Positions 1 through 21,764 of a DNA stretch of 64,000 nucleotides are shown one piece after another. Every line of letters begins with the position of its first letter. Position 1 is the first letter of the stretch. This DNA comes from Methanosalsum natronophilum (GTDB lineage Archaea > Halobacteriota > Methanosarcinia > Methanosarcinales > Methanosarcinaceae): assembly GCF_024808815.1 (NCBI RefSeq), contig NZ_JANUCS010000003.1:1-64000 (forward strand). The letters run 5' to 3'. A program made the translations under genes and the position numbers. The notes beneath the pieces were generated by a model. That model did no database searches and was not told where the DNA came from. It saw only the letters and a program-made list of their open reading frames with translations.

Positions 1-129
1 AAAAGAAGAAGCAAAGTAGTAGGTGCATTCCCAAATCAGGAAGCATTGATGAGATTGGGTGTTTCGATACTAATAGATATGAACGAAGAATGGTTAACAG
101 GAAATAGATATTTAAACATGGATCTCTAA
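1..129 (+). pseudogene. IS256-family transposase, C-terminal 42 residues (cut by window edge)
   Basis: An open frame enters the window at base 1 and stops at TAA 127-129. The translation contains RRSKVVGAFPNQEAL and ends NEEWLTGNRYLNM-D-L. That is the characteristic C-terminus of Mutator/IS256 DDE transposases (family pattern FPN...L, then EEW..GRRYL). Only the tail is visible, so whether the element is intact cannot be judged. It sits about 360 bp beyond the 3' end of mtaB, so the methanol island borders a mobile element. Confident about family; the partial/pseudogene status is only because of the window edge. Confidence 0.8.
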
Positions 130-19100: not shown

Positions 19101-19412
19101 TTATCCAAAAAGAGCACCTAGTCCTGCCATACCACTTTCTTCAGACTCGTCTTCTTCTTCCTCTTCTTCAGCAGCTTCTTCAGCAGCCTCTTCAGTTGGC
19201 TCTGAACTGCTTGACGCAGAAGCAGCTGGAGCAGCAAAAGCAGCAGATGCAATCGCTTCTTCAATATCCACATCTTCAAGTGCTGCAATCAAGGCTTTTA
19301 CTCTTGATTCGTTAACTTCGACCCCAGCTGATTCTAATACTGAGTTAATTCCTTCTTCTGTTATTTCTTTTCCTGCACTGTGCATCAAAAGTGCTGCATA
19401 TATATATTCCAT
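19101..19412 (-). CDS. rpl12: ribosomal protein aL12 (P1)
   Basis: aL12 forms the ribosomal stalk that recruits translation factors. The 103 residues begin [20 protein letters not shown] (dimerisation domain), then an Ala/Glu-rich hinge, and end [11 protein letters not shown], the factor-binding tail. GGTGAT precedes the ATG. It is the last gene of the operon. The final 50 bp closely resemble the end of rpl10 at DNA level. Confidence 0.97.
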
Positions 19413-19459: not shown

Positions 19460-20503
19460 TTATCCAAAGAGAGATCCTAGTCCTGCCATACCACTATCTT
19501 CAGACTCGTCTTCCTCTTCTTCTTTCTTTTCTTCAGTGTCAATTACTTCATCTGTGCTCTTCTGATCATTAGAACTTTCAGCAGATTCTTTCCTAGCCCC
19601 AACAATTTCATTCAAATCATCATCTAGCGCACTTTCATCTTTTGCTGAAGCGGCTGTAGCAAGACTAACCATTTGTGAATGTGCCTTGCTAATCAATTTG
19701 TCCATCATATCCGGCTCAAGAATCTCTGCACTTAAACCAAGACTCTGTGATTTAATAAATGCAGTTGAAAGCAAGATATTGATGTTGGCTTTTGTTGGGT
19801 AACTTGCATTGACTGAAAGGTTAAATGCTCTTTGGAAAGCAACTGAGATATCATTGAAATATTTGTTTTCATCTATTTCTAATACATCAGGAGTAAATAT
19901 GAATCCACTTTCATAAACTGCCCTTAAGTCCATTCCAACTTCTAATGGATGGATTTCAAGTCTAGCTAACATAGCTGCAAGCTTTGAAGATACTACTTCA
20001 CCTTCTTTTGCAACTACCTTATTTTCTTTAATAACAACTTTACCTTGTTCAATAGCAGCCGGTATTCCTACACTTTGAAGGTCTCCCAATATAGGGCCAG
20101 GTGGAAAACTAGTTGGACCTTTTTCTACCATTATGTCTTTAGGAGCGACAGTTCCAGCTTTAATTGGAGATGGTGTTTTGCTTTGTTCAAGAATCTTGTA
20201 TAACTTGAATGGATTTTCTTCAGTAAAAATAAGTGCAGTTTGAAGTTCTACAAAATCGTTCATTTTTTGTATATCTTCATTTGCTTCATCTAGAGCTCTG
20301 TTTATCAATGTATTTCTAGATACACGAAGTACTGCAGTATCCTTCAATTCCCTTCTCATTATCTGGAACTGTTTTGCAGGAATGCCTCCAATACCAGCTA
20401 TTGCAAATAGTGGATAGGTGTTTATGAGATCTTTTATGGATTTTATCTCATCTTTTTTCCACTGAGGGATATGCTCAGTGTGATGCAATGTTTCTTCCAT
20501 CAT
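19460..20503 (-). CDS. rpl10: ribosomal protein uL10 (P0)
   Basis: uL10 anchors aL12 dimers on the 23S rRNA stalk base. The 347-residue archaeal form has the rRNA-binding region (1-110: WKKDEIKSIKDLINTYPLFA), the inserted domain with TSFPPGPILGDLQ, helical spines for aL12 dimers, an acidic linker and the tail SGMAGLGSLFG shared with aL12. Its ATG overlaps the rpl1 stop by 4 nt (ATGA), so the two are translationally coupled. A second ATG directly follows at 20500. Confidence 0.97.
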   Translation of the reverse strand: MMEETLHHTEHIPQWKKDEIKSIKDLINTYPLFAIAGIGGIPAKQFQIMRRELKDTAVLRVSRNTLINRALDEANEDIQKMNDFVELQTALIFTEENPFKLYKILEQSKTPSPIKAGTVAPKDIMVEKGPTSFPPGPILGDLQSVGIPAAIEQGKVVIKENKVVAKEGEVVSSKLAAMLARLEIHPLEVGMDLRAVYESGFIFTPDVLEIDENKYFNDISVAFQRAFNLSVNASYPTKANINILLSTAFIKSQSLGLSAEILEPDMMDKLISKAHSQMVSLATAASAKDESALDDDLNEIVGARKESAESSNDQKSTDEVIDTEEKKEEEEDESEDSGMAGLGSLFG

Positions 20504-21141
20504 ACCACCCTCACGGATGAACCCATTGTGGTTGTAATATAAACCGACTTTAGGTTGTGTTTTCCTTTCTCGAGAGCATTTTCAATTCTATACAAAACTG
20601 TTTCAACATTTTCAGCAACTTTATTAGGATCAAGATTTCTTATTCCAACAGAAACATGGAAAGTTTGCTTATCTTTAGACCTAACTCTTATTGAGTTTTT
20701 TAGACTGTTAATCATGCTAATAATATCTTTGTCACCAGTAAGAGGAGTTGGCATTTTCCCCCTTGGACCAAGCACTGTACCAAGGGCTTTACCAATCATG
20801 GGCATATATTGCGCTTCTGCAATAAAAAAACTACATTCATTTGCAAGAGCCCTTGCCCTTGATTTGTCCGTAGCTAATTCATTAATGTCCTCTTCTGAAA
20901 AAATATAATCTGCCCCTGAATTTTTAGCTTTTAGTGCAACGTCTCCTTTTGCAAAGACTGCAACCTTTCTTTCCTTACCAAGACCATGAGGAAGAATTAT
21001 TTCTTCATCAATTCTATTCTTGGGTTGACTTAAATCCAGGTTTTTTAGATTAATGGCCAGATCAACACTTTCCTCAAAGTTTCTACTTTTAGAATCCTCA
21101 AGCAATTTGTTAACAGCTTCTACTATATTATTATCAACCAT
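20500..21141 (-). CDS. rpl1: ribosomal protein uL1
   Basis: uL1 builds the mobile L1 stalk of the 50S subunit and is a known translational repressor of its own operon in archaea and bacteria. The 213 residues include the signatures LGPRGKMPTPL and the RNA-binding stretch FHVSVGIRNLDPNKVAENVETVL. The ATG at 21141 is chosen over the upstream in-frame ATG at 21174. GGGAGG lies 5-6 nt before 21141, and the family starts near MVDNNIVEAVNKLLE. A compact folded leader ends at this Shine-Dalgarno. Confidence 0.96.
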   Translation of the reverse strand: MVDNNIVEAVNKLLEDSKSRNFEESVDLAINLKNLDLSQPKNRIDEEIILPHGLGKERKVAVFAKGDVALKAKNSGADYIFSEEDINELATDKSRARALANECSFFIAEAQYMPMIGKALGTVLGPRGKMPTPLTGDKDIISMINSLKNSIRVRSKDKQTFHVSVGIRNLDPNKVAENVETVLYRIENALEKGKHNLKSVYITTTMGSSVRVV

Positions 21142-21147
21142 TTTGTA

Positions 21148-21195
21148 CCTCCCGTAGTTGTGTGAACCATTCACAGCGGCTTCAGCCTACTACGG
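21148..21195 (-). promoter_or_regulatory. three-way-junction leader RNA at the rpl1 ribosome-binding site
   Basis: On the minus strand CCGTAGT (21195-21189) pairs with ACTACGG (21158-21152). This encloses two small hairpins: GGC-tgaa-GCC (21187-21178) and TGTGAA-tgg-TTCACA (21175-21161). All pairs are Watson-Crick. The closing helix shares two bases with the GGGAGG Shine-Dalgarno (21153-21148) of rpl1. uL1 autoregulates by binding its mRNA in Methanococcus, so this is a good candidate uL1-responsive element. Structure is seen directly; the ligand is inferred. Confidence 0.65.
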
Positions 21196-21278
21196 TATAT
21201 TTTGGAGTATATTATCTCCATGTAAGCAGTTCAATAGTATATCTATTGGGTTTAAAGTTATCGGTTAGACTAACCTAT

Positions 21279-21764
21279 TTACCATTCCTCAGCTTCTAGT
21301 CTACTATCAAAGTCTCCAGAATCAATCGCCTTTTGGCAATCTTTAGGGGAAACTCCTTCTACTGTAATTCCTAATGGTACACAGCTACCAATTATTTCTT
21401 TGGTTGCCGCTTTGAAGTTATATGAAAGGATATCACCTTTTTTCATACGAGCAACTTTTGCAATCTGTTCAATTTTCAAATCACCTATGATCTCGGTACC
21501 AGGCTCAGATGCACCTTTTTCTACACCTACCTCTTTCATTAGCAAGGCAGAAGTTGGTGGAGTTCCTACCTCAATCTCAAAGTTCTTTTTATCATCAACA
21601 ATTACTTTGACAGGAACTTGCATACCATTATAATCTTTTGTTTTATCGTTAATTTGATCGACTACATCCTTAATGTTAACACCTAGTGGCCCGAGTGCAG
21701 GTCCTAGAGGAGGACCAGGGTTTGCTTTACCACCAGCAACTAATGCTTCTACTACATTTGACAT
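21279..21764 (-). CDS. rpl11: ribosomal protein uL11
   Basis: uL11 binds the GTPase-associated centre of 23S rRNA. The 161 residues show the N-terminal domain VEALVAGGKANPGPPLGPALGPLGVN and the RNA-binding C-terminal domain with PPTSALLMKEVG and the archaeal tail. It follows spt5 by 26 nt. The 104-bp gap to rpl1 holds the rpl1 leader and possibly a further promoter. Confidence 0.97.
   Translation of the reverse strand: MSNVVEALVAGGKANPGPPLGPALGPLGVNIKDVVDQINDKTKDYNGMQVPVKVIVDDKKNFEIEVGTPPTSALLMKEVGVEKGASEPGTEIIGDLKIEQIAKVARMKKGDILSYNFKAATKEIIGSCVPLGITVEGVSPKDCQKAIDSGDFDSRLEAEEW

Follow-up and report, generated by a model that had tools for sequence, protein, structure and literature searches.

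In Methanosalsum natronophilum a small, folded RNA structure lies directly ahead of the uL1 ribosomal protein gene; what is its function? In the 64,000-nucleotide stretch of DNA analysed here (the window), the minus strand carries a 44-nt element (21195-21152) in the 137-nt spacer between the uL11 stop codon and the uL1 start codon (ATG 21141), with the sequence CCGTAGT-A-GGC-TGAA-GCC-GC-TGTGAA-TGG-TTCACA-CA-ACTACGG read 5' to 3'. An initial annotation had proposed it as a uL1 autoregulatory three-way junction. Both bacterial and archaeal uL1 are known to repress the operon that encodes them, through mimicry of rRNA (PMC10931766). We predict that the element, as part of the 5' leader of the mRNA for uL1, uL10 and P1, is an autoregulatory site bound by uL1, with a probability of about 0.88, because of its position, its conservation, the covariation of its helices, its likeness to the rRNA and its overlap with the Shine-Dalgarno sequence.

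The leader element and its putative transcript

The genes on the minus strand follow in the order ftsZ, secE, spt5, uL11, uL1, uL10 and the gene of the acidic stalk protein P1 (Table 1). A gap of 10 nt separates the outer helix of the element, helix P1, from the uL1 start codon, which places the element upstream of the coding region. Folded alone, it was predicted to form exactly the closing helix with two inner hairpins drawn in the initial annotation, and the two-base overlap with the ribosome-binding site reported there is correct, two bases being common to the 3' end of helix P1 and the GGGAGG Shine-Dalgarno sequence. The isolated element had a minimum free energy of -14.9 kcal/mol, as compared to an average of -9.6 in shuffles (z -2.1), and 6 of 200 shuffles folded as stably, so that folding energy by itself is only mildly unusual. 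The pattern CCGTAGNAR-(10..40)-ACTACGG matched once in the window and not at all in 100 shuffles. Positions 21100-21290 matched no Rfam family, even at a threshold of E 10.

In addition, a promoter-like block (ACCGATA-NN-TTTAAA) is located between uL11 and uL1. The form CCGATA-(1..3)-TTAAA recurs in 28 of 90 leaders (Methanosarcinaceae, Methanoperedens and ANME-2), where it sits 43-82 nt upstream of helix P1, and in none of the shuffles. This conserved block points to separate transcription of uL1-uL10-P1. Directly upstream of helix P1 the minus strand also holds a small hairpin, TGGAG-ATAATATA-CTCCA (21220-21203), and some Methanoperedens leaders have CCTCCC where the hairpin of the window has CTCC. 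It is possible that either motif pairs with the Shine-Dalgarno sequence as a competing structure.

Table 1. Positions of the uL1 leader features and of the presumed regulated genes in the window, with E. coli 23S rRNA counterparts
Feature	Position	Strand	E. coli 23S counterpart	Basis
uL1 gene, 213 aa from ATG (21141-21139); presumed repressor and first regulated gene	20503..21141	-		Pfam Ribosomal_L1 4e-56; PDB matches to archaeal uL1
uL10 gene, presumed co-regulated	19463..20503	-		Pfam
Acidic stalk protein P1 (archaeal L12) gene, presumed co-regulated	19104..19412	-		Pfam
Promoter-like block ACCGATAACTTTAAA	21251..21265	-		recurs in leaders
Whole leader element, predicted uL1 binding/repression site with inserted hairpin	21152..21195	-		fold, covariance model match, unique pattern, conservation
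Helix P1, 5' strand CCGTAG	21190..21195	-	GGTGG 2120-2124 (H77 5' strand)	covariation, rRNA match
Helix P1, 3' strand CTACGG, two G common with Shine-Dalgarno	21152..21157	-	CCACC 2174-2178	covariation
T21189 (variable position 7) and invariant A21188	21188..21189	-	G2125, A2126	leader comparison, rRNA alignment
Invariant A facing position 7	21158..21158	-	A2173	leader comparison, rRNA alignment
P2 hairpin GGC-TGAA-GCC	21178..21187	-	GGCT 2127-2130 with AGCC 2158-2161 (base of H78)	double changes at 2/3 pairs, rRNA match
3' asymmetric loop holding the inserted hairpin	21159..21177	-	2162-2173	leader comparison, rRNA alignment
P3 hairpin TGTGAA-TGG-TTCACA, lineage-specific insert	21161..21175	-		folding
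Shine-Dalgarno GGGAGGT	21147..21153	-		sequence; GGAGG-type after helix P1 in nearly all relatives

The conserved core across relatives

Leaders of uL1 from Methanosarcinales, other Halobacteriota and Thermoplasmata were collected from 30 relatives and 80 named genome contigs, giving 110 partially overlapping loci of which 85 are distinct. A script requiring a 6-bp helix NNNTAG/CTANNN together with the surrounding core found the core just upstream of uL1 in 105 of the 110 leaders. Three further leaders (L062, L091 and L094) have the core with a 5-bp helix and were recognised by eye, and in two Thermoplasmata-type leaders among the 110 loci (L083 and L089) no element was found by script or by eye. 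The core is composed of helix P1, a variable base opposite an invariant A, a second invariant A, the P2 hairpin and, on the 3' side, an asymmetric loop whose length ranges from 3 to about 80 nt. Among the six pairs of helix P1 the outer three covary (CCG/CGG, TTG/CAA, CCA/TGG, TCG/CGA), and the constancy of the inner three is partly built in, because the script required a TAG-like 5' strand. P2 has three to six pairs and is mostly followed by a G directly 3'. Position 7 is a T in the window, allowing a T-A pair; most relatives have a G, A or C there, facing the same A, which is invariant. Hence, of the closed 7-bp helix originally described, six pairs are conserved and the seventh position is variable. 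Helix P1 overlaps the Shine-Dalgarno sequence in most relatives, and uL1 lies immediately downstream in 46 loci retrieved at full strength by the covariance model or by pattern.

Pair statistics were determined on 40 leaders free of the inserted hairpin P3 and aligned with MAFFT. In these, 99.4% of cells were paired, the covariation score was 0.393 as compared to at most 0.155 for slid structures, and 40 double-change cells were observed versus 8.3 in shuffles. Five of the nine core pairs change on both sides, the helices being kept by compensatory changes, and three of the six P1 pairs are uninformative because they are invariant. The search for compensatory base changes across relatives, suggested in the initial annotation as a check, thus came out in favour of the element, with both P1 and P2 covarying.

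The same 40 leaders, which include neither the window sequence nor leaders with P3-type inserts, were used to build a covariance model. With this model the site was the single match in the 64 kb of the window (E 0.0022). Matches were obtained in 193 of 296 Halobacteriota genomes (E up to 0.1), an underestimate because many P3-bearing Methanosarcinaceae were missed, and in 25 of the 118 genomes from another phylum, that of a DHVE2 archaeon. In a direct pattern search, 80 of 112 Methanosarcinaceae genomes had a match, either to the P3-class or to the P3-free form; the genera without a match are largely those whose inserts exceed the pattern length. Additional model matches in the genomes were weak and mostly inside long open reading frames, and one set of them fell within 23S rRNA but at a distance from its uL1 site; all of these were taken as chance.

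Likeness to the 23S rRNA and the proposed control of uL1

The 23S rRNA sequences of relatives were located with the Rfam LSU model. In each of seven such sequences the leader core could be fitted at one location only, nt 2155-2192 (about nt 2170), as compared to a fit in about 1-4% of trials with shuffles. This location aligns with E. coli positions 2120-2178, the uL1 stalk with helices H77 and H78. Leader and rRNA site correspond one-to-one in helix P1, in the variable base with the adjoining A, in P2 and in the A that precedes the 3' strand (Table 1). The extra arm is placed differently, as an extension of P2 (H78) in the 23S rRNA and inside the 3' loop in the mRNA of the window. For a genome of the same genus, nine letters, GTAGGAGGC, are identical between rRNA and mRNA, and the two share GTAGGAGGC, GCC, AATGGG and ACTAC in this order. 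No 23S rRNA gene was detected in the assembly of the window itself, and mimicry was examined in the relatives.

In the proposed mechanism, helix P1, the variable base with its neighbouring A, P2 and the first part of the 3' loop would mimic the 23S uL1 site (H77 and the base of H78). uL1 in excess of newly made 23S rRNA would presumably bind the leader, and the bound protein would stabilise helix P1, so that the overlapping Shine-Dalgarno sequence would be hidden from the 30S subunit. Translation of uL1 would then drop, and that of uL10 and the stalk protein might follow through coupling. This putative repression would last until rRNA draws uL1 off.

The element is of an already known kind of switch, since leader uL1 sites exist in bacteria and have been proposed earlier for halophilic archaea, and since Haloferax leaders have the core. 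The latter (L099-L106) carry the same CCGTAG-N-A-P2-...-A-CTACGG arrangement by the Shine-Dalgarno sequence before uL1, with the differences that in most halophile leaders the 3' loop is about 3 to 5 nt long and lacks P3, and that P2 is shorter. A uL1 autoregulatory site has reportedly been characterised in the Methanococcus MvaL1 operon by Kraft et al. (1999) and Nevskaya et al. (2005). There, uL1 likewise acts as the repressor (presumed in our case) of uL1-uL10-L12, and the site similarly consists of two helices and an asymmetric loop that mimic the 23S site. However, the Methanococcus site is intragenic, about 30 nt past the start codon, whereas that of the window is in the leader and overlaps the Shine-Dalgarno sequence. 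In bacterial rplK-rplA leaders the uL1 repressor recognises an irregular stem with an internal bulge, again by rRNA mimicry (PMC10931766). Repressor sites in several bacterial groups lie ahead of the L1 cistron, sometimes directly as in the window, a likeness by description in a different lineage (PMC10931766). With leader sites already known in bacteria, the initial view that a 5'-leader location would represent a different design is not upheld.

Inserted hairpins and alternative readings

As judged from the leader comparison, P3 is an insert in the asymmetric loop, outside the conserved core. Of the initial proposal, uL1 as the target is well supported by the position directly ahead of uL1 over two phyla, the covariation, the 23S match and the contact with the Shine-Dalgarno sequence; the three-way junction as its essential shape is not, the core being two helices with an asymmetric loop and the third helix lineage-specific. 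P3 is absent from Halobacteria, Archaeoglobi and Methanohalophilus, as well as from genus g6, which belongs to the same family, and from the majority of groups beyond that family. One copy is present in Methanolobus, Methanosarcina, Methanomethylovorans and the window, two in one leader (L004), and three in Methanococcoides and an HMMV2-type genus. Six leaders (L005, L010, L014, L016, L029 and L035) have 70-80 nt inserted in the 3' loop, with three consecutive hairpins predicted in five of them, and three ANME-2 leaders (L067, L071 and L072) have a separate hairpin.

Because MAFFT misaligned the P3-bearing leaders, P3 was judged by folding only. With helix P1 held, 53 of 60 distinct P3-class leaders folded with two inner hairpins, that is, as a three-way junction. 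The arms are mostly TGRAC/GTTCA across genera, the exceptions being TGGAC/GTCCA and the TGTGAA/TTCACA of the window. In the two closest relatives (L002 and L003) P3 is weak or different and an alternative fold is predicted. P3 is probably real, though the support for it is weaker than for P1 and P2. In a search limited to open-access papers no earlier description of this variant with inserted hairpins was seen.

P3 could be a functional third arm, either a second protein contact or a switch competing with the rRNA-like loop, which would be compatible with uL1 control through the core. P3-size segments as a set folded better than shuffles (mean -3.53 versus -1.18, with 0 of 100 as good), the TGRAC/GTTCA arms are kept across genera and some loops retain rRNA-like letters, e.g. 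AATGGG and TGGAC. On the other hand, P3 is missing from Methanohalophilus, genus g6 and most other groups, and changes in its arms are mostly one-sided. We consider such a role possible, with the odds against it; most likely P3 is a tolerated or tuning element and not part of the recognition core. More doubtful still is a broader proposal, that the uL1 leader of Methanosarcinaceae has become a multi-arm junction, with one to three hairpins inserted in the counterpart of the 23S uL1-site loop, and acts as a genus-variable composite regulator whose arms might determine how strongly uL1 represses or might bring in another ligand.

As regards the ligand, the leader might be bound by another ribosomal protein of the cluster, namely uL10, the uL10-P1 complex or uL11. 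The uL10 and stalk protein genes are downstream within the same cluster, uL10 binds bacterial rplJL leaders, and uL10-L12 leaders are known in bacteria (PMC4538822). Nevertheless, the core matches the 23S uL1 site position by position and the element precedes uL1, not uL10, which renders this reading improbable. We give equally little weight to a structure independent of ribosomal proteins, such as a hairpin for RNA processing or stability or one merely tuning access to the Shine-Dalgarno sequence. The overlap with this sequence in most relatives would fit, and a freely varying number of P3 hairpins is expected of a stability element, but the invariant A residues, the variable base opposite an A and the 23S uL1-site match would be left unexplained. 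A chance fold in an intergenic spacer, for which only the mildly unusual energy of the single sequence would speak, has a negligible probability: the core, present in at least 105 of 110 leaders and conserved across two phyla with compensatory changes, together with the unique pattern excludes it, and it is refuted by the covariation and the covariance model match.

As a predicted uL1 site, the element would connect the supply of ribosomal proteins with that of rRNA, a mechanism that is itself classical. The analysis compares an RNA element without an Rfam entry broadly across two archaeal phyla. The natural series of 0, 1, 2 and 3 inserts could serve to tell the parts of the uL1 site needed for recognition from those that can be remodelled. 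Moreover, if the composite regulator proposed for Methanosarcinaceae were true, a ribosomal feedback switch would have become a composite regulator that differs between genera.
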